DNA from: Asterochloris sp. CNOR1
Taxonomy: Eukaryota > Chlorophyta > Trebouxiophyceae > Trebouxiales > Trebouxiaceae
Assembly: GCA_963969365.1 (NCBI GenBank)
Contig: OZ017761.1
Location: 2,186,899 to 2,250,898, forward strand
DNA: 64,000 nt
Reading direction: 5' to 3'
Shown here: positions 3,001-42,100 of the stretch, piece after piece
Layout: every line of letters begins with the position of its first letter
How positions within the stretch are numbered: the stretch's first letter is position 1
Notes under the pieces: generated by a model
The model's database searches: none
What the model saw: only the letters and a program-made list of their open reading frames with translations
Told to the model about the DNA's origin: nothing
Translations under genes and position numbers: made by a program

Positions 3001-6000
3001 AGCAGGCTCCCAGATACCAGCCCTCCGCTCATGCCCGCTGAGGGCATTCACCAGGCTGGCATTGCGCTGCGCCCTCTGCCGCTGCTCCTTCATCTCAGAC
3101 AGGACATCCTCCATCTTGTGCAGCAGTTCACTGCCGTCTGACACCCCCACCTGCAGCAACAGGTTGCGGGGAGCTGCTCAGTCAAAGTGGTCTCACATGT
3201 TTCATGAACGCATTGCGACTTCGCACAGGGCAGGCACCTGCGCAGAAGGCCTCACAATGCAAATGTTGTGACTTGCTTTTTGTGGCGGCAGAGCCAACCC
3301 TGCAGCAGGCGCTGCTGCAAGCTGCCCGACCAAATTTGGTAAAGCAAGCAGCCAGTCCTGCATCAGCCCCTGCCGATTCGAGCAGCACCAAATCAGAATG
3401 CATGAAGGGGTGCTGGCCGGCCGCTGCAGCACTTTGCACATTTCTGTACCCAATCCTGCCTCCCAGGGAGGGTCACTGTGGCCCAGAGCACATGGAGTTT
3501 GGTCACAACACAGAGTATTGGGGCCCAACCAAGATTTACGAGGTACAGCAACCTCCGCATCACAGCTTCCGGCGCCATGTGAGCGCATGCGCATCCCCAA
3601 GCCGACGGCGTCCTCCCACAGCAGCACTCACTGACCTCCACGTCATGGCCCCCACGCCTCTGTAGCTGCCAGCGCCACTTGACCAGGCTGCGATGCATGC
3701 GCAGCACGCGGTCGCAGCTGTTCTGGGGGGCGCGCTGCATGCGGTCCAGATCATCTGCCAGGGAGGCGTCCAGAGTGGTGCCCTGTAGGTCAGGTATCAT
3801 TAGGTATCATTGGCCAACTTGAGGTTGCACATGCATCGCAACTCTTCTTGGGGGCTCACTGCTTCCAGTCCAGCTTGTCTGCCACAGAGCAGGGTGGTGC
3901 CCTGCAAGGCACCGCTGGCCAGCTGCATATGCAGTGGGGCGGAGCGACTGGGGAGTGCAGCATAACCCTCTGCCATGCAGGCAGTCAGCAAAGGTGCCCT
4001 TCAACACAGCGATCTCGGCAGCGACACAGAGTGCTGGTCGGGGGGCGCACTGCAAACAGGTTAGCTTGTCTGCCATGTATGGCAGTCCAGGGTATCACTC
4101 TACAAGGACCCATTGGCTAGCACAGCACATGACAGCAAAATGACCTGCAAAGTGGTGCTTCTTGGAGGAACCTGACTTTCTCGCGGGCAGCACAATTGCA
4201 CAGGTGGGTGCCATGAATCATGCCCACACAGGCAGCAGGCCACTAAGCGGGTGCTGAGCCTGGGTCGCTGGCTGACCAGCATGGCGTGCTGTGGTGCAAC
4301 GCCATTCAGAGGAGAGCATGCAGGCCCAACTTGTGCCACATGCAGCACTCAGGGCTGCACCTGCACCGTCTTCTGCCCATACTTGTGGGGGTGCTCAATC
4401 TCCAGCCCCAGGTAGCCCTCTCTTGGCTTCATCGTCTCCACATGCTTGGCAAACTTTCTGACTGCCTTGCGCAGGGCCTGCAGGGGTGAGGAAGGCTCTC
4501 ATCACACATGCGCTGTTGGAGCAAGATGCTATCAGGCAGCATGCAGCAGCTGTTCCAAGCTGCCAGAGCTGCAGCGGTACTGCAGCAAGGAGCTGGCTAA
4601 AGTTGACATGTGCAGCTCAGGGTGGCACTGATCATTGGTCCTCAGTTGCTGTTTGTGTGCAGACAGACAGCGGCTGCTAGCTGTGACGGCAATGGTGCCT
4701 CAAAAAATCTTTTGGCAATCAAAAGGGTCCACAGGTTGGCTGCCGGGCACATGCAGCTGGGCGCAAAACTCATAGATAGCTGTCAGCCACTGCAATGGCA
4801 AGGTCGGCAGAGGCAGGTAGATCACATGCAATACAGCAAGATTCAGGATCAGCTGCCGGCGCACCCGCATATTAATGCTCACAAACTCCAGGAGGTACGA
4901 GATTTCGACGGCTACATCATGCAGACGCTCGAGGTGTCCATCTACACTACGGACCATGTCAGCAGCATCCTCAGCACTCTGTGCATCCTGCTGGGGGGGC
5001 TTCATCTGCACAAGGGAGGCATGCTGGAGTGGTGCCTCTGACCAGAACAGAGCTGTGGTCCACTTACAGGCCCCATCAGTCACCCAGCAGCTCAGGAATG
5101 GTGATGGCTGTCGTCAACCACTTCATGAGCCCTCATTTGCTGCACATGCACTGTGACCAGGGGGACAAAGGTACAGCAGGCTGAATTGTGCACATGGCAG
5201 GGCAAGCCTGCTTCTGGACAAGGAAGCTGCCCAGCCACATGTACCAAGACAGTTGGTGGCAGTGCAGGTCCCATGCTTGGCGTGCAGGTGGTGATCGTCT
5301 CCCTCCTGCCTGGATGCCTGGCAGCAAACACTGCGCAAGGTGTGCGTAGTGGTCAAGGGCAGGCAGCGCATGCTGAGCATGAGGCTTGACAGCAGGACAA
5401 CCAGCTTCACACCTCAGGATTCAACAGGCCAGAACCCTTAGCAGCGTGCAGCCAAGTGGCAGGCTGACAACGAATGAGTCCCAGACCCCTGCTTACCAGA
5501 AGGACAACCAGCCTCGCACCTGGGGCGCGGCATGCTCAATGTCGCACAGAGTGGCGTCGATGTCTGCCTGTTTCTGCCTGTAGAACTCCATGGCTTTCTC
5601 CAGCTCAGAGGTCAGCGTGCCTGCAGGGTGGTGGCATTGGGTGTTGGCTGCTGAGACACAGGGCGGCTTGCCTGCAGATGCATCCTGCTAACAACATGCT
5701 GCACGCTGCCTGGAGCCCTGAGATTCAGGCCGCAAGCCTGAATGCATGGTGAGTGCTCACTGACGCCAGAGCAAGGGGTGACCGTCCCAAATTGAGCGCA
5801 GTACTGCACTGCGGGCGGCGCACCCGAAAAGTCATACTTCCTGTCCTTGACGGCCTGTAGCAGCCACAGCACATTGTCAGGGCCAGCCCTCAGCTTCATG
5901 GTGGCTGCATGCAAAGGAACAGCAAATGACATCTGGCAACCAGCACTGCAGGCAAGTCACCTGCTCATCGCTGCCATCCTCGCGGGCAGCTCTGATGTCC

Positions 6001-6167
6001 CTGATCCTTGCTTTCAAGACCAGGTAATCAAGGTACTTGTCCTGCCACTCATCTCGCCTGGTTTCCTCTACAGGGCAGACAGCGGATTCTCAGCCCAAAA
6101 GATGTAGCAAGCCGGGACATGAGCAGAGCCTTTCATGCTCACTCCAGGTCTTCTCAAAGTGGACCAT
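1..6167 (-). CDS. SPX-MFS vacuolar phosphate transporter (PHT5/VPT-like), 3' end beyond the window
   Basis: Likely moves inorganic phosphate across the vacuolar membrane, with an N-terminal SPX domain sensing inositol pyrophosphates; this role comes from the plant PHT5 family. Seen here: the start at 6167 gives MVHFEKTWKE, followed by the SPX helix DEWQDKYLDY. Exons 6143-6167, 5961-6067, 5824-5932, 5520-5620, 4865-5035, 4361-4477 and 3636-3782 keep phase and cover SPX, including LLEFVSINM and ALRKAVRKF. A linker exon is at 2994-3150. MFS exons are 2584-2648, 2258-2378 (GSADVATIPGT), 1510-1656 (SRLVLGFG), 999-1073 (ARAVNRRYIADF) and 28-217 (ASAVGMAVGPLLA, then a TM segment ending CFADP). Exon borders between about 2650 and 2990 are unresolved. 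The last exon shown ends with a donor at 28, so the remaining TM helices lie outside. The first exon is only 25 nt. An exon-echo of the exon at 3636-3782 lies near 3875-3905. Confidence 0.88.
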
Positions 6168-6716
6168 GCTGCTGTTACAGGGTAGTGATGGGAGCTCTCA
6201 GTGCAGCATGGGATGTGCCTCCGGATCCAGACTTCCTAGGTTGCTCACTGCATCTCCAGACCAGAACGTCCCAGCTTGCTGATTGCTCCTACAGTGAAAA
6301 CAATAAGCAGCCTACTCGCCAGGTAGCTGGGCGAATCTTGACTACGTTAGCTGCGCCCGCATGGAGCAAGGGCCAATTTGGGCTCTGTTTTCTGAGCCAG
6401 CCAGGCGGGTGCCACTGCAACAAATTCACCCTGACCAATCTTTCAAGTGAAGTTCAAGTGTAGTGAGCACAACAACAGAGGCTCACCAAAAGTTGACGAC
6501 CTTGCATGCCTGACAGTGCTTCAAGCAGACCCTTGCAAAGCACAGCATAGTAGGGGACACTGCGACTCAACAAAGATTGTCAGGCTGATTGACTGAGTCC
6601 AGTGCTAGCAGGTGCTTGATGCAGGGTCACTCAACGTTGGGCAGCGTCTTCACATCAGGCCTTGGACGGAAATGGTGCCTGTCTGAAGAGCCCTAAACAG
6701 CAACTGCTGTGGCACT
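6168..6716. other. Intergenic: upstream of the phosphate transporter, downstream of the Crinkler-like gene
   Basis: Both flanking genes are on the minus strand. The interval must hold the 3' UTR of the Crinkler-like gene and the promoter/5' UTR of the transporter. I see no further gene, repeat or RNA. Open frames on the plus strand lack any recognisable protein. Confidence 0.5.
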
Positions 6717-8520
6717 TCACAGCCATGTTGCGCGAGATCTGACTGTGTCACCAGCAGGCGACACCCTGTGACACAAGCCCTGCCACAACATGTCGCGTAT
6801 CCCTCCAGGGTCTGCACCAATTGCCGATGCGCTCAAGTATGTCCGTAGGTGGTCACGCTCCTCCTGGAACAGCTTCATCGCAACCGCCTCAGCAACCCTA
6901 GTCGAAGCCCACCGCACAGTGGTAGTGACAAAATCATCTTCCACATGTAGGTGCATGATCAGCTGGCTGACCGCTGGATGGGCGTTGAGGTTCCTCTCAC
7001 ACTCAGTGAGGATGCGCAGAGTGGTGCCGGCAATGGCATGCCCCAGAAAATTCTGGAAACATGCATCTAGCTTTTGCAGCACATATCGAGGGATGCCACC
7101 CCAGCGGTCAAAGAGGCTGCGTAGCAGGGCATCAGATGTCCGTGTCGACACTCCTGGTTGCATGGCATTGCGGCACGCAACCAGCTCCTCAAAGCTCCAG
7201 ATTGGCATGTACAGAAAAGTGAAGCCGTGCCAGTTGACGGCATCCTGCACATGAAACCACACACGCAACATTTGCAAAGCCAATGCAAGGCACAGGCGCA
7301 AGTGGCATGTCAACTGAGACAGCAGCCCTGTCTCCTGGTTGCCACAATCACCCAGTACACGTCACGGCGATCAGGTGCCGTGATGAGAATGGTGCGAGCT
7401 TCCTGGGCGTGCATAGGGCATACGTTGTCCACCAGGTACCTGCAGGGTCAAAGGAAAAGTTGAGTGGGATGCTGAGCATTGCAGTATCGGCATGGCAACA
7501 AAAGTCATTTGAACCAGATCTGTCGGGCTTTTGAAGCAGAGCCACTGTGCCCTTGTGGAGCCAGCACTCACCAGGTATCTGATCTGGCAAGTTCCGTCCG
7601 GGGGTTAGCCAGCTGGAAGGCTCCCTCATCACAGAACAAGAGGGGATCTAAGCCAAGCTGGTGATACACCACTCGCTGCCCTTGCAGAGCCAGGCGGTGC
7701 AACATCAAGTAGCCAAAATAAGTTTTGCCAATGCCTGCACCAGGAAGCCTGGCAACACTTGATGTGGTTGGCTAATACAGCCGAGCACGCATCAAGCAGC
7801 CGGCAAACAAACTCAGCAACGCAGTATCAGCTTGGTACCAACCTGGATGGCCCAGCAAGACAAGTCCCCTGTTCTCTGGGTTCCCAAAGTATGCCTTCAA
7901 CCTCGTTGCCAATGCTTCGTAACAGGCCCTGATCATGAAGCGCTCCACATGCAGAAAGGAGGTGCCCTCAGCCAGTTGCAAGCAGCCCTGTTTGTTGACG
8001 GTTGCTTGTGGGAGTGCAGCCCAGAGTTCCCGGGTTGCTGCAAAGGCAGGCTGCAGGCCTGCAGGTGGTACAGCCAGGTCAAACAGATCATGCTGAATTG
8101 GCGGCCAGCTAGGCTGGGACCAGGTCACACAGTAGATGGCCGCTACTCGAAGCAGACAATCTGCAGATGTGAAGGCACGGATGCCAAGTAGACAGGTAAA
8201 AGGGAGTGTGCCTAGCGCAAGAGGGAGCAGGCCACACATGATTGAAGTTGGTCCTTACCTGACATTGATCCTGGTCAGTCACTCTCTGCAGTCGAACTCG
8301 CCACCTGCACCTGGAAGAGGGCCTGAAGATCTTTTCAGTGTGTGACACTGTCAATCTCTTCTGCTGTCAGCTTTTTGTACCACTCCAGGCTGCCTGAGCT
8401 TATCCAATGTGAATGATGGTGGCCTTACCGCGGTGACGTGCTGCAGGCAACGCAAACAGAGCCGTGATCAGACAGAAGTAGACTGGCAAGATTGACGCCT
8501 TCGGACCTTTCTGTGGCCAT
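6717..8520 (-). CDS. Crinkler/RHS-type P-loop NTPase protein
   Basis: The central part matches the P-loop domain shared by Crinkler (CRN) and trypanosome RHS proteins. Function in algae is unknown; the family is linked to effector-type and retrotransposon-hotspot proteins. Resolved exons in phase: 7843 to about 8190 (EGTSFLHVERF, then ALATRLKAYF, ending in HP), 7572-7734 (Walker A GIGKTYFGY built across the junction, as HP plus GIGKT), 7352-7439 (WYLVDN, then ARTILITAPD and VYW) and 6717-7244 (FLYMPIWSFEEL, then RWGGIPRYVL, ending at a stop). The hallmark order is complete: Walker A, TWYLVD, PIWSFEEL, GGIPR. The 5' end is unresolved. An ATG at 8520 opens a 30-codon exon with a good donor at 8428, and another exon seems to end at 8259, but phases do not join. 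An ATG at 8239 is an alternative start. No typical CRN N-terminal ubiquitin-like domain is evident. Confidence 0.72.
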
Positions 8521-8557
8521 GTCTCCAAGGCCCCATTTGTAAATGCTCTAATCAATT

Positions 8558-11500
8558 TTGGCCCCTGTGCTAAAATCATTGGGTACCTTTGATCTCAGTC
8601 CACAGGCAGTCCTGATGGTTGTTAGAGGCCTGCTGCATGGCAGGGCAATGCCGTGGCATGCCCAGCCTGCACAAGACCAAGCCAGGGGACACCACAGGAC
8701 ACCACTACACATCAGGGTAGCAGCAGCCACAGAGCAGGCTCCAGCAGAGCAGGCAGCAAGGGCAGCCAATGCTGGGGGCTGCCCAATGAGTGTGCCTGGC
8801 GGAGCCTCAGCAGTGCCACTGCCAGAGGGCAGGCCTTTGGAGTATGTACCCATGAAACAGATGAAGCAGGGCCCCTACAGAATGACGATGGGCCTGGAGC
8901 CTATGCACCCCAGGTGGGGCGCTCCACATCTTAAATGTTGTGACTGGCTGCATGTTCATTGGTGCGGCCAGGCCATATGTACAGCTAGGTGTGCTCAACA
9001 GCAGCAGCAGCAGCCGAGCAGTGCATTTGCAATTGTCAGGTGACAGTGGGTTGGGCAGCGTCCCATCATGGCCTGGGCCAAGTCTGATCAGCAGGACTTG
9101 CCAGTACCTGGTTCCGGGGTGAGTGCCAATGCATGCATCTGCTTTGCGATGGCCTGGTGACCAACCTTGATAGCTGGCATCCAGTGGCTTCTTGACACGG
9201 CAGACAGGACGAACAGCCACAGTGTCATGCAGACGGAGTTGAAAGCTGCAATTTTGCTGCAGGGACTGGATTGAGATTGATGGCTTCTACGCTGAGGAGA
9301 TGGAGATGCGGCGAGACATCCTGCAGAACCACAGGGATGTGGTGCTGGCCGTCATGCCGCAGGTGAGACTCCCTGACAGCAATCAAGGATGGCAGCATGT
9401 CCAGGGATTCCCAGTGACAAGAGATCCTGCAGAACCCTGGAGACAAGGTGCTGGCCATCATGCCGCAAGTAACATTGTAAGACAGCCAGGGCAGGGGAAG
9501 CTTGGTCCGGTGTGTCAGCGGCATGGGCTCTGCAATGTCATTGAGAGATGATGCTGGCCTTCATGCTGCGGTGAGGGGTCATGATGGCAAGGGCCGGGGA
9601 TGTCAGGCGCAGTGCTTTCAGCAGCATGAGCACCAGCAGATCCAGCAGGGGATGGTGCCAGCCGTTTTGAGGCATGTAACACTATATGACACAAAAATGT
9701 CGGGGGATGGCTGGTGCAGTGAGCTGATTCAGTGGCAAGAGCTCCTACGCATGAGGGCTGCAGCATGAGTTTTCAAAGGGGAGCCTGTACTGGATCACAG
9801 TGACCCAACAGCAGCAGCCTAGAGCTCTGCAGCCCTCAAAGACCGGCAACCTGCTGCTTTCCAGCTAATTGTGCGCTCAAGTTCAGCCTCCAAGTTCAGC
9901 CTCGCTGCGAAGAGACGAGGGTGAACTGAGATGAGGTGCAGGTGATTCCCTGAGGCAACAGAGGGTTTAGGGTTTGGGCACGCCAGCGCCTCCTGTTGCT
10001 GGGGAGTGGGAGGCCCTGCACAACCAGTACAAAGTCGTGCTGGCAGGCAGGCCGCACATGAACCCTTTGACCAGCAAGTGGGTGCTTGCCCTGTGGGCAA
10101 GTGCTACTGCAAATCCAGCTGGATGTCACGCTGGCAGTCATGCTGCAAGTGAGCCACTTGGCCAGCCGGGCTGCGTCGAAAGTCTAGTCCTGAATTCGGG
10201 TGCTGTGTCAACAGTCTAGTCCTGAACTCGGGTGGCGGACGTCTGCTTGGAACCTCTGCGCCTGCAGAGGGGGCCTGCCAGAAGATGCTGGCATACCAGT
10301 CCGGACCTGTGCAGAAGCTCACAGCTGCCACTTGCTGCACAGGGGGCATGTGACATTCCCCGCCCCCTCAAGAGCACCGAAAATCGTTGCCACCCAAGGT
10401 TGACCCTGCTCCCCCTTCTGTGCCCAGGCAGAGGAGGCCTGCCAAGAGTTGCTGGAGATGCTGGCCGACCACTTGCCTGGCGAGTATCCTACCCTCTTCC
10501 AGAGAGAGGGCAGCACACTGGTGGCCACACTGACGGGGGAGAGGTTCCCGCTGGAGCCTGGAGCATCCAGCATGCACCCGTTGGAGGCCTGCGCGCGGCT
10601 AGTCCAGGTGGGCTCAAGTGGGTGGGCAGCAGAAGATTGTGCGAAAGTGCGCATGACGTGCAGCACCAGCTAGCAGCACCAGCTGAGGTGCGCTGGGGCA
10701 TGTATCTCGATGTGCCAAGTATTGCAGCATACTCATGAAGGAATTCACATGCGCCAGAGCTTCAGCCTGCCAGCCCTTCACACTGCCCAGCCCTGCAGAA
10801 GGGGCCTGCGCCTGACGCCCACAACTCCTCAAACCCTCTGCTGTGTCCAGACAGGTCTGCCCTTCCAGCTGCCAGCCCCTCACCCTCCCTGCCCAAGCCG
10901 TCAAGTGTGAGCTTGATTCAGGGACAGCCGCTGCATGTCAACATCTGCTGTCTTGACTGCGAGGTCCTCCTAGCTGAGGGGCCTCGACCTGCGCCTGCAG
11001 GAGGACCTGTGCCTGATGCAAGACGACCCCTCCACCCCCAACTCCATGAAGTTCACGGCAGGAGCAGTGCTGTTCCCCCAGCGCTGGAGCCTTCTGGAGA
11101 AGCTGGGCATGGACCTGCACCGCATCCATGACCCAGTGCCTCAGTATGAGCAGGAGGTCAGCCACATTGAGCCTGCGCCTTGTCATGGACTGTAGCATCT
11201 GTCCCCATGCACTTTGCATTTGCCACACCTTGCCTATTGCCCGGCTGCTGCCTGCTGGCAGTCAGCAGTGATGTGCTCACACTGACATCCTGTAACGAGG
11301 GGCAACCAGTTGCTGTCCCTGGTGCATTTTGCACTATCCGAACTTTGCTTATTGCCCAGCTGCTGCCTGGTGGAGGCCAGCAGCAACATGCTCATTCTGA
11401 CAGCCTGCAATGAGGGGCACTCAGTTGCTGTCCCTGGTGCAGGTCAGCCGCCCAGTGGACAGCTTCATGCGCTTGATGAAACCTGGCAAACCCTTCTGGC

Positions 11501-13276
11501 GGGCCAACTGGACCATCACAGACCACCCCGACCTATTTCAACCCCTGGTGGAGGATGACATCAGGTGCTGATCAGGAACTGATGGTGGCAGCGTCACTTT
11601 ATGCAGTGTGAAGCAAAGCACAAGTGCCCTGTGTCCCATCCTGAAAAATACAGGTGCTTGCGGGTGAGCACAAGAAAAGGCGCGCTGCTGTGTAGCTACC
11701 CAGTCAAAGCGCTCTCTGTGGGCCGCCCATTGATTTCAGGGGGGCTGAGTGTGTGAGTCAAACATGGTTTCCAAGTGTCAGACTTACAGCTGTCTGTGGG
11801 TGTTTGCACCCCGCAGCAAGGCGACCATGCAACAGAACGTAACGCTGGGCTGCCTTGTAGCAAGGGTCAATGCTGTGGCTGGCTGGCTAGCCTTGCCAGG
11901 CATCAGGCTTCGTAACCCAATGCTCCTGCCTGGCATAACCTGCTAGCTCATCTACCTGGCATTGCCAGGCAACATGCTTTGTCACCAAGGCACCCTGCTT
12001 GGCATAACCTGCTGGCTCATCTGAGTCTGCTGCTGTGCACAGCCATGACTTTAGGCAGGCCATGCGACACATCCATTGACTCGTTTGAGGCTGCTGCTGT
12101 GCAGGGCAATGACTTCAGGCAAGCCGCGCGAAGCCTTTACCCAGGTGACCTTCCCTGTCTCTTACTTGACTGTGTTCGGTTGACAGGCTACAGCCGGGGG
12201 GGCATCGAGTGTTTCAAGGACGCTTCATGGGTGGTGCACTGATTTCTTGCAATACAGGGCTGCTGCTGCTTGCTGCCGGCAGTAGAACTGAGACATTTTA
12301 GCTTCTGGCTTCCTGTTGGCTCACTTGGGTATGTGAATGCATGATGTATATGGTCAGGCAGCAGGCCCTGCCTACCTCAGGTAGGCAGGTGATTGCAAAA
12401 GCAATGGCGCCTTTTGGATCATGGCTTGGTGTTGGACGCGACTATGATGCAGAGGGAGGCTGCAGTCCTTGAAGTCTATTCGAATGCTCCAGGTGAGCAT
12501 GGAGCACACCCTCACTCAGAGCGGCCAGCTACTGTGCAGGTGACTGATGAGAATGCGGGCCAAACGCTGTGCACGCGGTGCGAGCGTGAGACCTTTACGC
12601 GCCTGCCCCGCACACAGGCCATCCTGTTCACGATCCGGACCTTCCTCCGCCCCCTGCACAAGTATGCAGCCAAGCCAGACGAGGCTGTACAGTTGGGCAA
12701 CGCGCTACGCAACCTGCCAGAGGACCTGGTGAGCCCCTTGTGTTCCTCCTGGGTCGATAGGCCTAGTCAGTGAGTGTGAATGCTGAAGCCGGAGGAGGCT
12801 GTGGAGCTGGCCAAGGAAATGCACAGTCCTGCCAGAGGTCCCTGGTCGGCCGCTTGATTGGGGGCTTAAAGCAGGGGACAAGCATGATGGGTGCCTGCAT
12901 GCCCTGGGTGCGTGAGCAGCCAAGCCAGCATAGGCTGTCTCGCTAAGGAAAGTACTGCATGACCTGTTGGAAGACCCAGCAAGCACTTGCATCTGCCACC
13001 TAGGCACATGTCATGACATTTCCAGGTGTTGCAGCCGTATGAGGTTTTGCATGCCCAGGCAGCAAGCTGAGGCTGACTGCCTGCCAGGCAGTACCGGCGT
13101 CCAGTTCCCTGACAGCTGTGTGCTGATGTAGGCGGACCATGACTGACACTGGTCCCCTGCAGGTGAACTACAAAACCATGGGACACATCAAGGAGCATGC
13201 CCAAAACTACCTGGATGCAGCCGTATTGAATGCTGAGGCCATCAAGGATGGCAAGACAATTGCCAAGGCAGCCTGA
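8558..13276 (+). CDS. DUF3445 / HDOD family protein (haem-dependent oxidative N-demethylase-like)
   Basis: Members of this family (HDOD alpha, DUF3445) are haem proteins proposed to demethylate amines oxidatively; the substrate here is unknown. In-phase exons: first exon ending 8913 (GPYRMTMGLEPMHP), 9263-9362 (DWIEIDGFYAEEM), 10428-10607 (LADHLPGEYPTLF), 11001-11156 (LFPQRWSLLEKLG, then HRIHDPVPQYEQE), 11443-11564 (KPFWRANWTITDHPDLF), 12540-12728 (ETFTRLPRTQAILFTIRT) and 13163-13276 (YKTMGHIKEH to stop). One short exon between 11564 and 12540 is missing; 11815-11863 fits the phase but is unproven. The start is uncertain: the frame is open from 8558 with in-frame ATGs at 8618 and 8786. The stretch before 8786 is Arg/Ala-rich and could be an organelle transit peptide. 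Its introns carry the richest set of exon echoes in the window and a short interstitial telomere repeat. Confidence 0.87.
9421..10152 (+). repeat. Three exon-echo copies of the 3' end of HDOD exon 9263-9362
   Basis: The exon ends with about 45 bp reading gacatcctgcag to gtcatgccgcag, then gtgag. The following intron repeats this at about 9421-9472 (catcatgccgcaagtaac), 9545-9573 (ttcatgctgcggtgag) and 10110-10152 (cagtcatgctgcaagtgag). Each copy is diverged, and copies 2 and 3 still carry a gtgag-like donor. They are in the same orientation as the exon and are not part of the coding phase. Confidence 0.75.
9962..9978 (+). repeat. Interstitial telomere-like repeat
   Basis: Two telomere units in a row (agggtttagggtttggg) sit inside an intron of the HDOD gene, 54 kb from the chromosome end, in the same orientation as the terminal array. 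Confidence 0.6.
11217..11442 (+). repeat. Tandem duplication of the acceptor region of HDOD exon 11443-11564
   Basis: Two diverged copies of about 115 bp lie head to tail. Both contain tattgccc(a/g)gctgctgcctg and both finish with cagttgctgtccctggtgca. The second copy supplies the splice acceptor actually used at 11443. The first contains an equivalent, apparently unused acceptor. Confidence 0.75.
11885..12130 (+). repeat. Two pairs of diverged tandem repeats in an HDOD intron
   Basis: Pair one is at about 11895-11955 and 11956-12023, each ending ggcataacctgct(a/g)gctcatct. Pair two is at about 12023-12068 and 12087-12130, each with ctgctgctgtgca, then catgactt or aatgactt, then aggca(g/a)gcc. 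I see no coding potential. Confidence 0.65.
12781..12975 (+). repeat. Two exon-echo copies of the 3' end of HDOD exon 12540-12728
   Basis: The exon segment at about 12661-12730 (aagccagacgaggctgt, later ctgccagaggacctggt) recurs at 12781-12845 (aagccggaggaggctgt, later ctgccagaggtccctggt) and, more decayed, at about 12910-12975 (aagccagcataggctgt, later gacctgttggaagaccc). Confidence 0.72.
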
Positions 13277-13732
13277 CCCACCTGTTTATGAGCCTGCCCA
13301 CCTGAACTCGCTGATTCTGGTTGGCGCATCCTGACGCCACTGGACTGGACCTATGCAGGCAGGCACTGCAGGGTGGTGTACAAGCTGCTTGATTGTAGAG
13401 TAAAGGGGCCTGCTACGACCTTCCTTGTGCATTCAGTCTGCCCCATGCCAATCTCTGTTGTGCACTGAGCCAATCTTGCCATGAGTATCTTGAGACAGTC
13501 CTCTCTCATATGTCATTGCAGCCTTGTCTTTGTATCTGCTGTGTTTACATCTGCTTGAAGTGCCTTGAATTGTTTCCCACACCCTTCTGAAATCAGGCAC
13601 TGAGCTCATGCTAGAATCTTACGATGGCAGCTGGCTTCACTCAGTGATGGTTGCTTGATGAGCAAGTGGCAACAAGCTGCTCATACTTTGGCAGGAGGTG
13701 CACAACCGTTGACCCCAGAGACTTCCACCTCA
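13277..13732. other. Intergenic 3' flank of the HDOD gene
   Basis: A T-rich stretch after the HDOD stop with no open frame I can support. It probably contains the 3' UTR. Nothing else recognised up to the SINE-like element. Confidence 0.5.
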
Positions 13733-14137: not shown

Positions 14138-14397
14138 CCTGAGCTTTCACATGACACCATATCACTGTGCAGTGAGTCTGACGTTTGGTTGGGAAGCACC
14201 TCCAACACCGAGTCGTCACCTAACAGGGGGCCGTGCTGGTCAGTAATCGGTAACAAAAGCATTCGGCTGCTTTCATCCATCTGCAGCAGCCAGGTTATTT
14301 GCCAGGCACTGCCCTACATTTGCCTAGGCAGCCCTGAAACACGCGAGAGGTTTTCCTTCTACACTGGCACTGTGTTATATTGCACAACGCATCAGGG

Positions 14398-30100: not shown

Positions 30101-33100
30101 TTTTTGAGCAGTGGTCTCCCATGTTTACTGGCACCTTGCGGGGACAGGCCACTTGCGCCGGTGCTGAGACAGCAGGCAGCACACAATTTCCAAAACAGAT
30201 GCACTTAAAGGTCCCACAGCACTGCATGCAGCACCATAACACTGGCAGCCCCAAGACGCCAAGGTGAGTCCTTCATGCACAGTCTCGAGACCACCACAGT
30301 GCTCACCTTCTGGTCTGCCTTGATCTGCTGAGGCAGCGCCGCAGTGACAGCCTCATCGTCCTCAGGAGGGTCATCGGGGCCCTGCTGCCTCCGCTTCAGG
30401 AGATCATGCTCCTCAGCAGCCTCCGCATTTGCATCCTCTTGCTGCTTGACCTTCTCCTCCTGCGGCCAGCATCAGGCAACATGGCAGCGTGAGGTCCTGT
30501 TCAGTCAAGGACCGGTCTGGGAGCCAGGCTGCTTGTCCACCCAATTCCACTGCTTGGCAGCAGTGAAGCTGGCCCAGGCAGCCCCTCCCTCAAGACAAAG
30601 AGGAACGAACACCTGGCCGACAGTTTTGCGAGTCTGCCTGCGAGGCACATCCATTCCACAGCCAGCACAAGGCACTGCATGCTATGCTTTTGGAGCTTCT
30701 ACCCTTGGCTGCATATGCCTGCATCTCTGCTCCTTACTAGCTTCTGGGGTACCTGTACCTTGCATTCTGGCAGCCGGACCTTGGCATGGGCGCACAGGCA
30801 CGCATTGGCTGCCTACACCTTGGCCTAAGCTCACTGGCACACTTGGGCAGCTCAGAAGGCTGCTCATGCAGAGCCCCACTAGCACCAGCGTCTGGCCTGC
30901 CTCAAGAAGCTCCAGGCACAGGCCACAAGCAGCCTCCACGATAAGCAACACAAATTGGTGCAGCAGATCTGCCCAAGAAGAGCAGTGTGCATGGCAAAGC
31001 TGAGCATGGGTCTGGATGCAGACTGTCAGTGCAGGTGCCCAACAGCAACAGTCTCCACTGGCTCTAGGTGCGGAGCTTACATCCCCACAGGCAGCCTCCA
31101 GCAGCCGACACGGTAACTGACACAACTGGGTCAGCAACATCAGCCTATAGGAGGGTAGAGCGCGGCTCAGCGAGGTGAGGGCTCACAGACAGGCTGCTGG
31201 TGCAAGCGCCCACTGGCACCAGCTGTTGGGCTGTCTGCACAGGGCCTGGAGGCGACACACAGACAGGTGACCTGGACTCATGCCTTCGAGCAGCCCTGGC
31301 TGTGAACAATGCAACAGACAGACAGCTGGTGTTGGATACCTACTGGCTCTAGGCCCTGACCAGTCCAGCATGCTCTTGAGGCCACATGCGTGCTTGTGCC
31401 TGCTGACACCTGCCCTTGAGCAGTCTTGATCACTCGAAATCACAGGTAGATGATCACCCACCAGCACTAGCCTCTGGGCAGCGTTCACCAGCTGCTTGGC
31501 ATCCTTTTGCCAGCGCGATGCCATCTTGGGGTTGCTCCCATCAGGGTGCCCTGTGCAAACAAGCAGCGACCTATTGAGAATATCCAACAACAATTGGAGA
31601 ACAGCAGGGCAAGACAGCCTGAGGACTGCCACCTGATGGTGCTTGAGAAGTTGCTCTGCTTGACCTGAGCTCAGCACGATGTATTGCAGACATGCAGGCT
31701 CTGAAAGCAGCTCCACAGCAGACGGGATGATCACAATAATTGCTTCTTGGTCTCATTGCTGACCCAGCTCCCTGCCAGCTGCTCAGGCAAGTATGTCACG
31801 GCAAACGCATGTACACCTGGCAGCTGTGGTGTAACTAGCTGCTCTCTGCCGTTTGTTAGGCATTTTGTGGCATGCCAAGCATGTATGCCTGACCAGGAAA
31901 CACCTGACTTCAGCAGCTTGTGAAACTACCCAAGGCTGTCCATCTGCAACCTGCCCATGCAAGTGAGGCATGCGCAGCACCCACAGCATGGCAGGAGTGT
32001 CTCACCCGATTTCAGATTTTTGGCGATGTCATCAGGCTCGCTCGCCGCAAGCTGCTCAGGTGTCAGGATGCCACAGTTGTACAGGATGCGAGCCCTACTG
32101 GCCTGGACTCCTGGTACAGTCATTAGTGCCACCAGCTCCTCTCGTGTGCCAGCTTCAATGCGCCTCTGCAAGCAGAGTTCCATTGCTGGGCCCCTGGCGT
32201 CCATAGCTGGTGACACCAAGGGGACAACATCGGCAGCAGCAATGTGAAGGCCTACTCAGCTCATTCATGACAGTCCAGCCCTTGTCTGACAGAGACCAGC
32301 TTCACCCTCAAGGTGCGTGTTGCGGCTTGTTTTGCCTCAAGCTCACGTGCAACTGTGACAGTAGGGCCTCAATGTCTGACCAGCCCTTGCCGCGAGAGAA
32401 AGCCGCCAGGTCACTGGTGAACTGCGCTGCGGTCTCTTTGAACCTCTTGAGCTCCCCCACGCCGAGGTCATATTTCTTGTCAAGGGAGGCCACTTTGGCA
32501 GCGGCGTCCTGCGCAGTCATGTCCTTCTGTGAGAGAGGCACCTGCAGAGCAGCAACAAGGTGTTTGAGAAAGCAGGAGATGAGCCTTGAAGCAGCATCCT
32601 GCACAGTCCTGCCATCTTCTGACAGCTGCACCTGCACTTCACCAAGGGGCACTGTTACATTGTGGGACTTGTGGTGGCAGCATCATCCTTCAGGGTCACC
32701 TCATCTGCAGCCAGGGACAGCTGCACAGCAGCAAGCGGCTCCTCTCATTGAGAATCCCTCTGAGGCAGCAGGCTGTAGTGCAGAAAATGTCTTTGACTGT
32801 GAGGTGCACCTGTCTGACAAGAAGGGCAGTGTCCTGTGAGGGGAGTCAGACCTGAAGACGGGTTGATCTGCAGTCTTGAGATTCTGTGCTGCACAGCAAC
32901 ATGATGCACTGTCTTGTTGCAGAGGGCTACCCATGACTGCATCTTGTAAAATTGCTGTTCCAATGTCAGTAAGACCAGCACAGCAAGAAGGGCATCAAAC
33001 ATGATGTGCAATCTGCCTGCAACAGCAAGAGGTGACCAGGAGCCTAGCCAGACTCTGCGACTGTGCACAAGCTACTCGCAGCTGTAAGCAGGCTAGTTTT

Positions 33101-36100
33101 AGCATGGTACTCATGTCAAGCCAGTTTCTGCTACGCTTTGAGGAGCTGACTGCATCGTGCGCACATTGTTTACCCACAAGACAGCGCTGTAAAGCAAGCT
33201 CCTGCAGCTACTTGCAGGACAGGGCTTACATTGCAAAAATCTTGCTCACCCACCTCACAGCTGCGCAAGCCAGAGTGCTTCAGCACATTGTTGGGCAGGG
33301 CTCACCTCGCGCACAATGTCCGTCAGCACCATGGCAGCATAGAACCGCATGTAACGGTGCTGCTCGCCCTTTTTGATGGGAATAGATTGGTGGACATGGC
33401 CGCACAGAGCCTGGTGGTTGAGCCCAAGACGCTTTCTCATCAGGTTGTCCTCCTTCTGCAGGCAGGGGCAAGAGCACCATGAGCAGCAAGCTTGCTGTTT
33501 CACATGTGACTTGCCAGATGTGCTGTTGTACTGTCGTTGCAGGCAAAGGCAGCATATGCCCAACAGCAAAGGCGATAGGCAGTAAAGCAAACACTGCTTC
33601 GTGCCTGTCTGGCTTCTGCTGGGACAGGCATGTCCACTTCACCTTCTGTTACATCTCGTGAGAGACCTGTGTGTCAAGTGATACTTGCAATTGTGAGAAA
33701 GCTTGCTCTGGGCCCCCAGACCAAAGGATTGTCATGGAGCATTGCTGCAGCACATGCTTGCTGCAGCACAAATAGAATTCTAGCTGCAAGGTCGTGTGCC
33801 AACACATGAACCCCATAGATCCTTGCAATCAGGTAAAACTTCACGCATGCAAGATGCCACGCCGGCAAGTTGCCCCGCAACTGACATCTTGACATCTGTA
33901 ATGGCAGCATGCACCCTTCGGCCACGAAGGACACCAGCATACTCTCTCAGCTGGTCCAAGCTCTGGGCGTGAGCGGAAGGCAGCATGGCAAGCCAGGAGG
34001 CTGCAGGCCTTAACACAGAGGTCCCGTCCCTGTCTTAACACAACAGGAGCTGGTGTTACCAGAAGGCCCAGAAGGGTGCGCCAGTGTTTGTCATCCATGA
34101 AGCCATCCTTGTTGATCCAGGGCAGATCAGGGACGATCATGTCTGTGCTGGTGTGGCCCTTTGTGACCTTCTTGGTGGTGATAGGTACCACCACATAGCA
34201 GAGGTGGAGGGGGAAGGTGTCGCCCAGGCAGATGCTTGTGCGGGTGTCCTCCAGTAACTGCAGGCCCAGCAATTGCAACTGCTTAGCCTTGCCAGGCCAG
34301 GTTGGGTTACCAGAAATACCGTAAGTCTGGAGTGGTGCCCCGGTCAGGCAGCATTCCTCAAGCACCTTGTCCTGATTGTCAGCCTGATGTGGAAGTGCTT
34401 GGATTGAGAGCTGTAGTCAGTCATCACCGCAGCTGACTTGCCTGGGCAGTCTTCACAATGCAGAAGTCTGTCGCAGCCCCTCCACCTGGGACACCTCGCT
34501 CCCTGTGTGAGCTTTGCAGCCCCAGTACAGTGCCTGCTCACAGCAGCATGAGTTTTTGCATGCATGGCTCTCACTCAAGCAACATGCACCTCAGCGTGAG
34601 GTTCCTGAGTATTATAACATGCAGGCCTTAGGTGATTGGCAAGTCCACTTGCTTGCGTTGGCACGCACCACATTACATATGCCCGCGTGCACCTGCTCAC
34701 CTCAAGCACCTTGCTCCCCAGGGTGAGGCCCATGTGCGACGCGGCCAAAGCCTTGCCAAAGTCTGTGACCTCGTAGTCTGGGTTGTCGGGGGTGCCACGA
34801 GGGATAAGGACTCCTGACCCCGTGAGCCGCTTCCTCACTGGCTCCACGCACCTCAGCAGGGTCTGCACAAGCCAGGGCAGCATGTCAAGGCCAGCAGTTT
34901 CACAGGGCAGACAAGGCTAAGTGTTATGAGCAATGACGATGCTAGATCCTGACAGCAGCAGCTACACGTCTGGTCTATGCAGGCTCAGGCTGCGCCCATC
35001 AGGGCCAAAGACGCATTCCAGCTGCTCTGAAACTGGCTGTGCCACAGCATATCTCAGAAAGTGGCACTAGTAAGCAGGAGCAGCATGTGGCGAGCAGCCT
35101 GTGGCACTGGTAAGCAGGAGCAGCAAGTAAAGCCTGCACCTTCAGTCCTAATGGCGTAAGCCTCATTAGCAGGGCCAGCTGCAGCATGTCAACAACTGCA
35201 GCCAGAGCCCTGATGCGATTTGAGCCACCTGGAGCAAGCGCTTTGCACAGACAGGCCCAAAAGCGACATGGGGCTCACATAGGTGCTAGCTACAGCTCTG
35301 CCATCAGATAAAGGTTTCCGCAATCCACATCGCTTGCGACAAGCAGGCCCCTGTCTGCTGGCCTGCGCTGGCAGACTGAGGGGCATGGCAAGAGCCAAGA
35401 TGCTCCTACCATGCAGCACGAGGGCTGCTCTACCTCTGATGGCATGCGGGTGGCCATGAGGGTGCTCCTGAGGAAGAGCATGATGTCTGCGGGCTTGGTG
35501 CAGAGGCCAGAGTTGACGGCGTCTGTGATGGCTCTGTCCACTCCCTCCTGTGCCATCAGAGCACTGCCCACAGCCTCCAGGTCTGCCTGCAAGCAGACGC
35601 ACCAGAGTCTCATGAAGGACACAACATTGTCTGTCAGATAGAGGGCCCAGTGTAGCACTGCTCACAGCCTCCAAGCCCTCCTGCAGACAGCACAACCTCA
35701 GGACTTGGGTCAGGTTAGCTGCGGAAAGACAGACAGGAACGCTGCACACAGCTTTCAGATGTGTCTCAGGTCAGGCTTGCAGGCAGCTGCTTCCCAAACT
35801 TGTCCAGCTTTGGGAGTCAGAAAGCCCACCTTGATGAGGTATTCTGCATCCTTCCGCCGCTGCTCATTCCTTATCCCTGCAAGGATGACAGCTTCGCCAG
35901 TAATGTCCATTCCTTTGCGCCCTGCGCGCCCCGAAATCTGCTGCATCTCAGAGATTGTCAGGAGCTTGGGCTCCCCATCATACTTTTTCAGGTCCCTATA
36001 GGCAACATGCAGCACTGCTCAAAGATGCGACATTGCTCTGAGAAGGCGCCACAACTGGTGCACAGGAGCACAGCACAGCAGCTGCACAGTTCCCAAGATC

Positions 36101-39100
36101 CTCGCAGGCATACTGACTGTTTTGCATATGCCATTGCAACTTGCACATCTGGTCAGGTTCCTATGGGCGATTCACCATTACTCAAGTGGGACGGAACAGC
36201 AGCATGCCAGCCACACCAGCTGCCGAGTCTTGTAAGGTTTCTGGATGAAACAGTGCCTGGCACACACGATAGTGTCCAGTGTGTCAGGCCATGGACAACG
36301 CTGTGGAACATGAAGCCCTGGGAAGCCCAGTCTTGCTAGCAGGCACAGGCCTCACACGTCCCTTCAGCAACTCCAATGACTCAATACCATGCTGAGCACA
36401 AGCTGCATTCAGTGCTTGATTGGGCCCACTATCACAATTTGACCTGATGAGAGGGCGCACCTGAATATCACCCGCCGGACAGGCAGGTTGGTCCCCACTG
36501 TCAGGGTGGAGGTGCAACAGATGACAGAAATGGCACCAGCCTGGAAGGCATGCTCCACAAGGTGCCTCTCCTCAAAGCTGAAATCTGCAGAAAGCAGGTG
36601 TTTTGGAGTCAGTGGAAGTTGCCAGCACCAAGGCTGCGACACACAGCAGCAGTTTCAGATTCGCTCCACAGGATGACGCTTTGTCAGCCGCAGACTGCAG
36701 CAGGCAGGTGGGGTAGGGAGGCAGGCGCCGCGCTGCATGCCAGCAGCATGTTGGGTTGTTCAATGGGTACTCGTAACTGCCGTGCTTCATACATACAGCA
36801 TGTAGTAGGTGGCATGAGCGTTGCCCAGACAGGCAGCATTGCAGGGCTCAAAACGGTTGCAAGTTGATGCCCTTCACCATCACTGTTGCTTGCATGCAGC
36901 AGCTCTTGCAGATGCCTGGAGTGCACTACGGAGGGCCTCACCGCCGTGATGGAAAGCAACTCCTTTCTGCATGACTGCCGCCAGCTTATCGCTGTACTTG
37001 CTCTGCAGACTCCTAGCCTTCTCCACCCAGGTGTCACGCCCTGACTGGCTCCAGTACTGGCTGTGCTGCAGCTTCTTGGGGGCAGCCTCAACATGCCTGG
37101 AAAGATATTCTGCAGTGCTTATGGTGCCCTGCAGCAGGTTATTGGGTGCCTGAGCAGCAAGCTGACCATTTGTCACATGCAGGGCACATGTTACACCCCA
37201 CCAACCACCATGTCCTGCAGCATGTCAGCCAGCACACCAAACATGCAGTGGGTCCAGCCCACAGCCTGCCACAGAGTACATGCTACACCGCTGTCAGACC
37301 AATGGTCTGCAGCCCTGCACGGGGAGCATTGGATTCTGTGGGTACCTTGGCCTGCAACCTGCAGTGGGCCCAGCTCACAGCTTGTTGCGAGGCAAAGCAA
37401 TGCCAGACAGGCCTTCAGGGAGAACCAGCAAGGATGGCCGTGGCTTGGCTGCAGAAGTTTGTTGGCTACAGTCAGCCCTGGTCAATGTATGCTTCACATG
37501 CCCGCCTCAAGCGTCGTTTATCCTGAGGTGGCAGCCCAGTGTTGCAGGTGAAGACAAAGCAAGCGCGACACAGGCCTTACAATGTGCAGTCTTTTGCAAG
37601 GTAGGATGTACACGGGCATGCAGCACATCGAACCCACCACCGAGCACCCTAGAGCCAGCTGCAGTATATGGTCTTTTGCGGGCAACTCCGGCTCTTTGCC
37701 TCACAGACTCAATCTGCATTACGCGCAGGGTACAACACTGCAGTGTCCAGCACCTCCTTTCGGGCAGAAAAGCTGGTTGCAATTGTGCACAGCTTACACG
37801 TCAAGGTGGCAGAAACTTGCCAGCCTTTGGGGAACCGGTCAGTGCTTGCCCAGCACTTGGATAGACTGAGCCACAGGAGGCAGACTGTGCAGTTGCAGGC
37901 AATCCACTAGGCACTTCGGGTCTGGGCCACTTGACTGGCCTCTTCCTATCAAGTCATGTGGTGCCAATGCGATGACCAACAGTTGCAGCCACAAGGGCCA
38001 CAGTTGCTCACCCACTGGGTGCTGCAGAACACCAGGACTGAGCCGCCCTCCCCAAGTGTGTCGTCCACTGCACATCGGCACTGCTCCAAGACAGCGTCAT
38101 CTGGCTTTCTTGTCTTGACCATCTCCGAGTGCATTGCAGGCAGCACGCGCTTGATGCCGCTGCCATCTGTGATGTGGGGTTGAGAGAGTACATTGCCATC
38201 CAGCATCATCATGGTGAGGGGCACAGCCCTGAACAAGACAGTAGACAGAGGGTGACCAAGCAAGTGGCCATGAGGATGCCATGCCCAAGTATTGGGCAGC
38301 TTTAGCAATTCTGGGGGCGAGGATGTCCATTTGCCAGAACAGCGCCAAGACTGCTCTCTTGCAGTGTGTCGCAGACACCTCTAGCCCATGTGACATGCAG
38401 TATACTGGAGCTGCCTGCTTGCACATGTCATCTCAGCCTCCCCCCTCAGCCGCCCTGTCAGCTGTTTTGCACTTTCTTGCGCATGAAGCAGTCCAGCATA
38501 GCTGCATTGGGGAAGCAAGTCTGCAGCCTGCAGCGTGTGTGTTGGCCCAGATAATGCCATCAAAGATACCGCAGGCCCTCTGGCCTGCAGTCTATGACGT
38601 GTTCCCCTGCCGGCAGCCACGCTGTCAGCTGAGCTGCACCCTCTGCAGACTGTTCGACCAGGAGCCGACCTGCAGTCTGTGACGTACACCTCTGCCCCCA
38701 GCCACTGCCTCAGCTCATCCACATTCTGCATTGTGCCCGACATGGCCACAATCTGCAGCCTGCTGGTGTGGAGGTCCTCAGCATCCTGGCTGACCTGCAG
38801 ACACAAGGGGAAGGTTGAGCATGTCTCAGGCCCAGAAAGGCTGCCCGCAAATTGCTCTTCATGTCATGACACACACAGCTGGACCCTGCCTTGCATGCTA
38901 CAGCAGCAGGCAGTCAAAGCACAGTGGCTAGCCAATAGAAGGCTTCAGCCACCCTTCTGTAGCTGCGCTGCCCAGTGTGAATGCAGAGCTAAAGGCCTTG
39001 GCTGAGTGCGCTGGCACCCATCACTGCATCCCTGACAGCATCCTGCATGCTGCCTGCCTGCTGAGTATCAGGCAAGGCACACCGTGTGGTCGTGCTGAGT

Positions 39101-42100
39101 CGCCTGCTGCTTCTCCAGGTAGCGCAGCATGGACAGCATCAGCTCCAGGCGAGGTCCCCGCCCAGAGGTGGACACCTACAGCCAAGACAGGGACAGTCAA
39201 GAGACTGCACAGCAGGCTCTGCTGCTGCAGGGGCCGCTATGCATCAGATGGGGCCTGCGAACTGCAGCAGAGGCGTGCCGCTCAGGACAGATGCTGCGGG
39301 AAAGCATGAGTAGCCATGACTGTGGCTGCGGGGTCGAGTAAGCAGGTCAAAAGACTCTAACTCACCGCAGAGCAAGCAGGAACAATCTCTCCAGGCTTGG
39401 CATTCACCTGCAGAAGAGCTCTGGCAGCAACAGGTAGTGCCCTTGCATCAGTCAGGCACACCAGTTGCAGCTGATCTTTGGCACATATGATAGTGACTGG
39501 TATATGTGGCCCTTGTGCAGGTTGTGCGCAGATTTCAGCAGGACCCACAACATCCAGTATGCTTTGTCGAGACAAGGAGATATTTTTGACAGGTGAGCAG
39601 TCAGCTGCTCACAGAAGCAGCTTGGCAACCTTGACGCAGCCCTGTTCCAGGACCCACACAGGCTTGCAGACGCACTGCCTAGCCCCTGCAGCAGCCAGCA
39701 GGCTCATCATGTGCAGCTCGTCAGCCATTTGCAGCCCAGGCACTTCAGGACCTCCTCCTTCAGTGCAAGCACTGACATGAAACGGCGGGCAAAACCATCT
39801 GGTGCACACCCATCAAGACCTGGAGGTTGACCTGTGCCTGGCAGGCAGGTTGACCATGTGCGGATCGTCCTCCGCCATGCACCGCAGGCTAAGCTGTAGT
39901 CACCTCTGTGCCAGTTTCACATCCAGCTGCAACCAGCCACACAGTCAGAGGCTCACCATGTGCAGCTCGTCCACGACCATGCAGCCCAGGCGGTGTAGTT
40001 TGCCCTCCTCCTTGAGGCGCCTGATGAGGGGATAGGCCTTTTCAATGGTGCACACAATGACAGCCACTTGGCTGTCAATCTTGCCCACAAAGTGGTGGCC
40101 ATAGTGTTGCTTCACCGTCCTGCAGCGCCAGGGCAATGATGTCCGAGTGCTTCCAGCCTGATGAGCATGTCAGGGACTGTATCAGACGGCCCTAGCCCCA
40201 CTGTAGCTCCTGAGCGCCTCAGATGGACAAATTGAACAGTTTCTAGAACGAGGTGGGGGTTTGGCAGCAACACGCAGCATTGTGTATGTGTATGGTTTGC
40301 GTGCCCTAGTTGTGAACCTGTTGTGCAGCCAAATTTGCAGCGCCAGGCAGGCCTCACCTGCTGCTGGCGCCAGAAATGCGCTGTAGCCCTGTGCACATGC
40401 TTTGAACTCAGGCTCGTAGCAGTGGTCGGGGCTCACTTGTTGAGAGGGTCAAAGACAGGCTGCAGCCGGTGCACCTGCTCGTCGCAGATCTTCACATAGG
40501 GTGTGACAAAGATGCAGAACTTGTGGGTCTGCGCCACTGTGCGCAGGATGAGCGCGTGCGCCACCGCACTCTTGCCGGAGCCTGTGGGTGCGCTGATCAC
40601 CAGGTTGCAGCGGTTGCGCTCCACCTTTGGCATCATTAGGCAGTCAGCCTGTGGCAGCAGGACAGCACTAGCTATGAAGACGCAGTGCTTCTTGAGGTGT
40701 CAGCCAAGTGTCTGTCAGGTGCTTGCAGGCACAATACATGTGGTAGGCCTACAGCAGCACCTGGGCATACAAGAGCTGCATCACCGGTCTACGAGCCATC
40801 TCAAAGTGTGCAAAGCATGCACACCTGGGCGTCTGGCGCTTCTGCGCTAGCTGCTGTTGATGCTTTGGCAGCAGATTGCATGAGGCAGGTGCAAAATGCA
40901 CTGACGTGCATTCTAGCCTAGTCTCAACATGTGGAAGATGCCATCTGCCCCGCATCAGGCCAACAGGGTGCTAGCCATACGGGACACCATCAGTCATGGC
41001 CTAGCCGCCCTCAGTCGGGACAATGGATCCACCAGCAGCTCAGCAATACCCCGCTTGGATGCCCACACAACGACAGCCCTGTCACAACATCTTCCTCCGC
41101 CCCTGAACTGAGCTTCTGACAGTCCACGTACATTGATTTGCTTGTGCGGACAGCAGCACGCACCTGCCAAGGGTGGCAGTTGCCCTTGAGAATCCTCTGC
41201 GCTGCCTCAGGCGCCTCAGGCACAAGGTCGCTCAGTCTCAGCGACAGGTGCTGGGGTGGCGCCTCTGCCACCTCAACATCGGCGTCTGCCCTGTCAGGCG
41301 CCCTACACAAGAGGCGTAACAGTGTGGGGCCTATGTCACTTGCTGTCAGAGCCTGCAAGATTGGCAGGCCACAGAACAAACGGTGCACAGGCCACGGCAC
41401 CAGGCACCAGTCTGTCAAATGGGGCTTTGATACAGCGTCTAAGCTCAAAGTATGGTCTTTCCAGCCGCAAGACAGCTGCTTCCAAGACAAGTGCCTTTTA
41501 GAAACCGTGAAGCGTCAGCTTCTGGCAGGTCAGGGTACGTAAAAGTTGGCATTGCTGCGTCCTCAGCAGCTTCTGCAGCTGCCTTCAGTGCCTCCTGTAG
41601 CCCACTCAGATCAGGCATGAGGCCAGCCAGTGGCAGCCGTATCAACTTCAACCACACCCCACTGCAGCCACATGCAGCCCAGGGATCTTCGACATTAGCC
41701 ACCTGTTGCCAGCAACAGGCGCACTGGAGGGCCCTGGCGCCCCGGCCACAGCATCCCAAGCGCCGCCGCCTGCAGCCGCCTGAGCAGCAATGGGTCCCTC
41801 TGTGCCCAGCAGGCTGGCTCTCCCTGGCCTTAGCCCATGGGGGTCGGGGTCAGGCCTGCTGAGGAACCCCCACATTGTGCCAGCAGAGCTGCTTGCTGGC
41901 GCCCCGCTCTGCTGACCACCAGCAGCCTGAGCAGCCGCTGCTGGTGCAGCAGTGCCCCTGCCTGAAGGACTGCCTGTTCCCTGCTGGTGAGGCCAAGCAG
42001 GTGCAGCCACCTCAGCTGAAGCAGCGCCAGCTGCTCCCTGCTGCCAGCGCCCGGCTGGGGCAGCCCCCATTGGATCGTCCATCAGCGGTGGCGGCTCCCC

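Follow-up and report, generated by a model that had tools for sequence, protein, structure and literature searches.

Introns of the green alga Asterochloris sp. CNOR1 carry direct copies of their adjacent exon edges

The window analyzed here is a stretch of 64,000 nucleotides from Asterochloris sp. CNOR1 (contig OZ017761.1, forward strand, positions 2,186,899 to 2,250,898). It is a telomeric contig end of a 56.4 Mb genome of 21 contigs (GC ~57%), with a TTTAGGG array at 63584-64000. Its gene models comprise RSH (RelA_SpoT, E 3e-40), HODM (haem-dependent oxidative N-demethylase; PF11927, E 9e-72), a zinc alcohol dehydrogenase, a CBF/Mak21 protein, an SPX-like gene and POLQ, the last carrying both the helicase and the polymerase halves. 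The introns of several of these genes contain same-orientation copies of the adjacent exon edge, referred to here as echoes, and such copies recur across a sample of the genome. Among the labels given in the initial annotation, RSH and POLQ stand and 'HDOD' is replaced by HODM; the SPX match is weak, at 23.2 bits under the Pfam cutoff of 27.8, and no MFS domain came up in a domain search of that gene model.

Genes were modeled with a hidden Markov model trained on the sequence itself and retrained with four more loci (817 introns). Training converged on the donor CAG/GTGAG and the acceptor CTGCAG/G, where the slash marks the splice site. The acceptor consensus is very strong, with T, G and C before the AG in 93, 93 and 95%, a sharpness to which self-training may have contributed. 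The sample consists of the window and 28 other 10-kb loci, 20 of them from two contigs, and amounts to 343 kb or 0.6% of the genome. The last 1 kb of the window was excluded from the repeat counts, gene-finder training and the edge, border, anatomy and word tests, and its last 500 bases from the window gene models and the list of high-identity segments. One locus, L013, holds at 6285-6773 a dense 78/157-bp array of ~95% identity that is called exon and intron by turns and is probably a young array. This locus was excluded from the codon-position comparison (5 of 46 alignments), from the border-continuation, single-base, shared-word and independent-loci tests, and from one variant of the contrast between edges and interior; under the anatomy and intron-count criteria it has no echo.

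Echoes are real and general in this genome, beyond four chance cases. Among exons of good coding score, 52 of 402 introns bear an echo at a score of at least 17, as do 22 of the 28 loci outside the window at least once. At a score of at least 18, 25 of 560 comparisons of the last 60 exon bases with the intron downstream give a match, as do 19 of 569 comparisons of the first 60 with the intron upstream; swapped introns lead one to expect 0.1 and 0.3, and an exon-interior control gave 0 of 252. The initial annotation had held such copies to be a general feature and called for a self-alignment of exon edges, which was run on the sample. In the 27 loci outside the window without L013, with introns of at least 280 bp and the same score, 16 of 186 exon ends and 13 of 186 exon starts match, against 0.05 and 0.20 expected from swapped introns (29/372 in all versus 0.25); reverse-complement and mirror controls yielded 0 and 0 matches.

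The copies also keep to their own side of the exon. Exon ends match the downstream intron in 25 of 554 cases and the upstream one in 3 of 501; exon starts match the upstream intron in 18 of 565 and the downstream one in 3 of 506. Introns one or two places farther from the exon match in 0 to 0.6% of cases, and at a score of at least 18 all echoes are direct. An annotation-free count over the first 303 kb found 244 direct segments lying 20-500 bp apart (score at least 18), as opposed to 0 mirror and 10 inverted ones. In the window, the self-trained models over the first 63 kb offered 126 exon edges for testing, and 17 of these have an echo. The subtelomeric window is about twice as rich in echo introns as the other loci (14/63 versus 38/339, p 0.024).

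The 55 echo edges comprise 32 on the donor side and 23 on the acceptor side. For the best copy at each edge the median offset is 147 bp (10th-90th percentile 87-330), and at 29 of the 55 edges there are at least two copies, the chance of a second match at an echo edge being 12.6%. Spacing at these multi-copy edges has a median of 106 bp and is often regular, as in the runs 106/103/104, 103/105/88, 94/92/105 and 108/89/108/127; neighboring spacings agree within 20% in 20 of 48 cases, where random placement gives 4.7 (sd 2.1). Multi-copy echoes thus spaced look like decayed tandem arrays with the exon edge as terminal unit. In the POLQ array, linkers between the exon-like parts can also be aligned by eye among several copies, and in the HODM array the match extends 18 bases across the exon border; decayed echoes leave part of their offset unmatched. 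Of the 29 multi-copy edges, 17 have their best score in the nearest copy; decay increasing with distance from the exon, as first proposed, thus holds only in part. Echo frequency rises with intron length, from 0/52 (70-150 bp) and 2/107 (150-280 bp) to 22/117, 15/73 and 13/53 in the longer classes; that is, 19-25% of introns of at least 280 bp have an echo, compared with 2 of 159 shorter ones.

Young tandem duplications are found in the sample. Among 33 local direct segments of high identity (at least 0.89), 13 fill their whole unit and so are exactly head-to-tail; among the 11 of at least 50 bp, 9 are, and a tenth is a multiple within one such array. Those that fill their unit are located in introns, exons, one gene end and intergenic DNA. 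The one at the gene end takes in the last 41 coding bases of the CBF/Mak21 gene, stop codon included, together with 3' flank (Table 1). No microhomology was seen by eye at its ends, and by analogy it may display the appearance of a newborn echo. Plants are known to form head-to-tail duplications when staggered breaks are filled in and joined. The window also contains an exact 96-bp head-to-tail duplication of 100% identity at 60156-60347, in sequence mostly called intergenic, and at 46939-47112 a 48-bp coding repeat of 3.6 units in a short predicted protein rich in proline and threonine.

The copies show no coding constraint. Mismatches between exon and copy are spread evenly over codon positions 1, 2 and 3, at 20.8, 19.5 and 23.5% (~645 sites each in 41 alignments from all predicted exons; chi-square p 0.20), and most gaps (35 of 43) measure 1-2 bp. 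Fewer offsets are multiples of 3 than fall into either other class (11/55, p 0.02), and the raw count of stops is 3 in 588 codons. Old copies should show more divergence at exon third positions, and the flat codon pattern would mean either that synonymous sites are constrained or that the copies diverged fast. Donor copies retain GT in 10 of 26 cases, if anything below expectation (p 0.02 or 0.09, depending on the baseline), and the loss of GT may exceed neutrality; acceptor copies retain AG in 9 of 25. Thus backup splice sites, which the initial annotation had envisaged, are not favored; neither are alternative exons, given the lack of coding constraint. Judged by these patterns the copies look non-coding, as that annotation had supposed, and neutral rather than functional. 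In POLQ the gene model made an exon of one echo, at 24895-24957. Without it the match to DNA polymerase theta (8gd7) rises from 174.7 to 181.3 bits over a longer stretch and that to polymerase nu is unchanged (165.5 with, 165.4 without); the segment is probably non-coding.

The explanation we consider probable is neutral head-to-tail duplication across exon borders with the outermost splice site kept. Short segments, with a unit mostly of ~60-200 bp, would be duplicated head-to-tail at random positions in genes. When a duplication crosses an exon border, splicing would stay with the outermost border, i.e. the first donor or the last acceptor, so that the copy comes to lie within the intron, the protein is unchanged and the intron is one unit longer. 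Because the outermost site stays in use, border duplications would be tolerated. Some first duplicates would then be amplified unit by unit into regular arrays, and all copies would decay neutrally. The coding exon does not decay and would keep border-crossing duplications visible after intron-internal ones have faded; we take it to be a preserved reference rather than a target. Most events would be old, the recent rate being lower. The proposal made at the outset was one of repeated local tandem duplication in which a single border survives for splicing and the other copies become part of the intron; the orientation, the own-side placement and the regular arrays support it.

Whether exon borders are nevertheless special was judged against the intron interior. 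In the 27 independent loci (introns of at least 280 bp), edges match in 29 of 372 cases and interior windows in 10 of 494, a 3.85-fold excess (p 9e-5, approximate as the interior windows overlap); matches are therefore commoner at exon edges than inside introns, and a frequency at edges no higher than inside introns or intergenic DNA had been named initially as grounds for rejection. For good-score exons in the whole sample the counts are 26/242 for ends, 17/242 for starts and 22/778 for interior (2.5-3.8-fold), and in a smaller comparison 19/180, 11/184 and 4/190. Intergenic windows match in 2 of 100 cases, and stretches inside long exons in 9 of 108, in line with coding repeats. An excess of this kind fits the proposal that exon borders are preferred duplication sites, for example through breaks or repair tied to transcription or splicing, and neutral models with uniform ages give just 1.1-1.5. 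However, the excess drops to 2.3- and 1.6-fold when all predicted exons are used (25/255, 17/255 and 23/544), and at score 22 it is not significant for both edges. At a score of at least 25 in the independent loci it is again not significant (5/372 versus 2/494, 3.3-fold). An excess that shrinks for young copies was considered and is unsupported in these loci, with only 5 and 2 matches at that score.

Pooled single-base identity by distance gave no exon-edge signal and a tiny intron-intron excess (0.0006); since composition dominates this measure it is too blunt, and shared words were used instead. The excess of shared 8-mers per window is similar at exon ends (0.35), exon starts (0.40) and in intron interior (0.29), with practically none in reverse complement, which weighs against preferred borders. 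With the detected echoes removed, the excess at exon ends is unclear (1.07 for 8-mers, 0.90 for a spaced seed) and some is left at exon starts (1.39, 1.19). Young duplications that fill their unit likewise occur in intron interior, exons and intergenic DNA.

In simulations, duplications were placed uniformly and left to decay neutrally. Uniform ages yielded an edge ratio of 1.1-1.5 (1.1-1.3 in a first version), and other indel settings fitted no better. Since the conserved exon is an undecayed reference, old random duplications can themselves give an edge excess, and they yield one at least as large as that observed. Among five age ranges, that of 0.25-0.6 substitutions per site came closest, with an identity of 0.786, 1.25 gaps per alignment and 18% of copies continuing past the border into the intron (scored slightly differently from the data). 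The observed values are an identity of 0.787 (412 of 1935 sites mismatched), 1.05 gaps per alignment (43 over 41) and a continuation of 17.5%, with 5 of the 23 donor copies and 2 of the 17 acceptor copies running on; 7 of 47 copies were dropped for too little intron. A two-class fit suggests a recent duplication rate several times below the older one; it is rough, two of its four coefficients being set by eye from the simulations.

Several points weigh against neutral, randomly placed duplication. Uniform ages reaching to the present predict 51-57% continuation and a 1.3-1.5-fold edge excess, compared with the observed 7 of 40 and 3.85-fold. From their own divergence, 17.9 of the 23 donor and 13.0 of the 17 acceptor copies should continue into the intron, far more than the 5 and 2 that do. 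The old-age simulation overshoots the edge ratio at 10.8-fold, so a young component must be mixed in. Exon third positions are scarcely more diverged from the copies than the others, an awkward result for old ages if synonymous sites are free of constraint. The gene models themselves come from self-training on sequence alone. This explanation must assume a past excess of duplication, a real edge preference, or a faster loss of intron homology than modeled; the apparent shortage of young copies would reflect either a past burst or a wrong decay model. On balance, we judge it unlikely that exon borders are preferred sites. A stronger version, also unlikely, holds that borders were the preferred target in a past burst, that exon-anchored arrays account for a large share of long introns and that the exon serves as an internal clock. 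If it were true, intron growth would be directional, buffered by splicing and datable intron by intron.

Selection could instead keep echoes because they act as decoy or backup splice sites, serve as alternative exons or regulate splicing, and the sharp drop of homology outside the exon-derived part, along with the few stops, could be read in this way. The even codon mismatch, frame-shifting gaps, rarity of offsets divisible by 3 and frequent loss of GT and AG all speak against it, as does the better polymerase theta match of POLQ without its copy, and selection appears improbable. It is very improbable that the echoes are an artefact, whether of low-complexity introns, of the common splice consensus or of faulty gene models. 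The common acceptor motif is strong and the gene model did take at least one echo for an exon, but the swapped-intron, mirror and reverse-complement controls are almost empty, the result survives restriction to exons with a high coding score and removal of L013, and local direct repeats are also found free of annotation. Repeated units with splice sites in several genes resemble introners at first sight, yet an insertion of introner-like or other mobile elements is extremely unlikely, because all three echo introns tested have no second place in the 56 Mb genome (E 0.001, very common words skipped). Insertion of copies derived from spliced RNA (cDNA) is extremely unlikely as well: homology is untraceable past the exon edge in most copies, as it would predict, but continuation into the next exon is at chance (2/23 and 0/17 at p<0.05) and the copies are direct-oriented and nearly always on their own side.

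The echoes of the window are collected in Table 1, together with the duplication at the end of the CBF/Mak21 gene.

Table 1. Exon-edge copies and the young gene-end duplication in the window (positions in window coordinates; offsets in bp)
Feature	Position	Strand	Details
Acceptor-side echo of SPX-like exon 3636-3782	3836-3889	-	ungapped match to 3712-3765, offset 124
Copy borders of SPX-like exon 3636-3782	3901, 3998 (weak), 4099	-	scores 30.5, 13, 23.5
HODM reference monomer: end of exon 9263-9362 and first 18 intron bases	9314-9380	+	
HODM donor-side echo 1	9420-9486	+	offset 106, 75% identity
HODM weak donor-side echo	9520-9590 (extent approximate)	+	border near 9572, offset 209, score 16
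HODM donor-side echo	9627-9693	+	offset 313, 61% identity, score 16
HODM donor-side echo	10009-10075	+	offset 695, 61% identity
HODM donor-side echo	10100-10166	+	offset 786, 69% identity
Acceptor-side echo of HODM exon start 10428	10254-10291	+	offset 164
Two donor-side echoes of HODM exon 12540-12728	12779-12979	+	borders 12844, 12979; offsets 115, 250
Donor-side echoes of RSH exon 15691-15870	15899-16016	+	borders 15938, 16007; offsets 67, 136
Donor-side echo of RSH exon 17465-17625	17767-17809	+	offset 179
Acceptor-side echo of POLQ exon 22110-22262	22416-22453	-	offset 177, score 17.5
Donor-side echo of POLQ exon 24167-24289	24008-24046	-	offset 154
Three donor-side echoes of POLQ exon 25004-25233	24883-24951, 24781-24849, 24623-24691	-	offsets 109, 211, 369
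Acceptor-side echoes of POLQ exon 25004-25233	25387-25446, 25589-25648	-	offsets 207, 409
Donor-side echo of POLQ exon 26302-26518	26098-26166 (extent approximate)	-	border 26098, offset 203
Acceptor-side echoes of POLQ exon 32347-32541	32590-32645 (score 18), 32679-32734	-	offsets 90, 179
Weakest donor-side echo, POLQ exon 33306-33455	32952-33005 (extent approximate)	-	border 32952, offset 353, score 17
Two weak donor-side echoes of POLQ exon 34701-34862	34356-34601	-	borders 34573, 34356; offsets 127, 344; scores 18, 16.5
Acceptor-side echoes of POLQ exon 35434-35586	35654-35690, 35738-35774	-	offsets 94, 178
Donor-side echo of POLQ exon 38670-38794	38584-38630	-	offset 85
Donor-side echoes of POLQ exon 39957-40119	39707-39889	-	borders 39854, 39707; offsets 102, 249
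Young exact 177-bp head-to-tail duplication, CBF/Mak21-family gene end	53947-54300	+	99%
Copies from repeat finding, HODM gene	9314/9420/9627/10009/10100		
Other window copies from repeat finding	15832/15899/15984, 17588/17767, 24623/24781/24883/24992, 25180/25387/25589		
Further window copies from repeat finding	32500/32590/32679, 35560/35654/35738, 38584/38669, 39847/39949		

Evidence on how introns lengthen usually comes from transposons or length statistics. In many long introns of this genome, decayed copies of exon ends form a fossil record of the process, and because the original sequence survives in the exon, individual duplication steps are legible. Rates, unit sizes and ages of intron growth thus become measurable within one genome, and claims of intronic 'pseudo-exons' gain a quantitative null. 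Should exon borders prove to be preferred sites, they would point to a link of transcription or splicing with DNA breakage. The POLQ echo that the gene finder mistook for an exon is in addition a warning for annotation.

Three known systems share features with these echoes. Introner elements are repeated units containing splice sites inside introns, whereas the three introns tested here belong to no genome-wide family. Where mutually exclusive exons have arisen by tandem duplication, exon-like copies likewise lie in the neighboring intron, but the copies here are partial exons without coding constraint or preservation of frame. Intronic minisatellites and decayed tandem arrays, with head-to-tail units, regular spacing and neutral decay, resemble the echoes in each of these respects and differ in that the first or last unit here is an exon edge. 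Recurrent exon-anchored arrays as a common feature of one genome were found in no report among the titles and abstract beginnings listed by the literature searches, which do not cover many subscription papers.

Intron gain by tandem duplication is itself established (PMC3443670). In the AGGT-type gain described there, a gene segment is likewise duplicated in tandem and the duplicate spliced out; the duplicated exonic AGGT makes a new intron, whereas here existing introns appear to be lengthened at their borders, in many genes and often by arrays. In the potato RdRp gene, a tandem duplication crossed an intron-exon border and part of the old exon became intron (PMC4974935). This is the same border-crossing event, with former exon sequence turned into intron, but it is a single recent case that produced a new intron, in contrast to the dozens of mostly old copies within introns seen here. 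What may be unusual in this genome is the prevalence of the copies, their arrangement in exon-anchored arrays and the apparent shortage of young ones.

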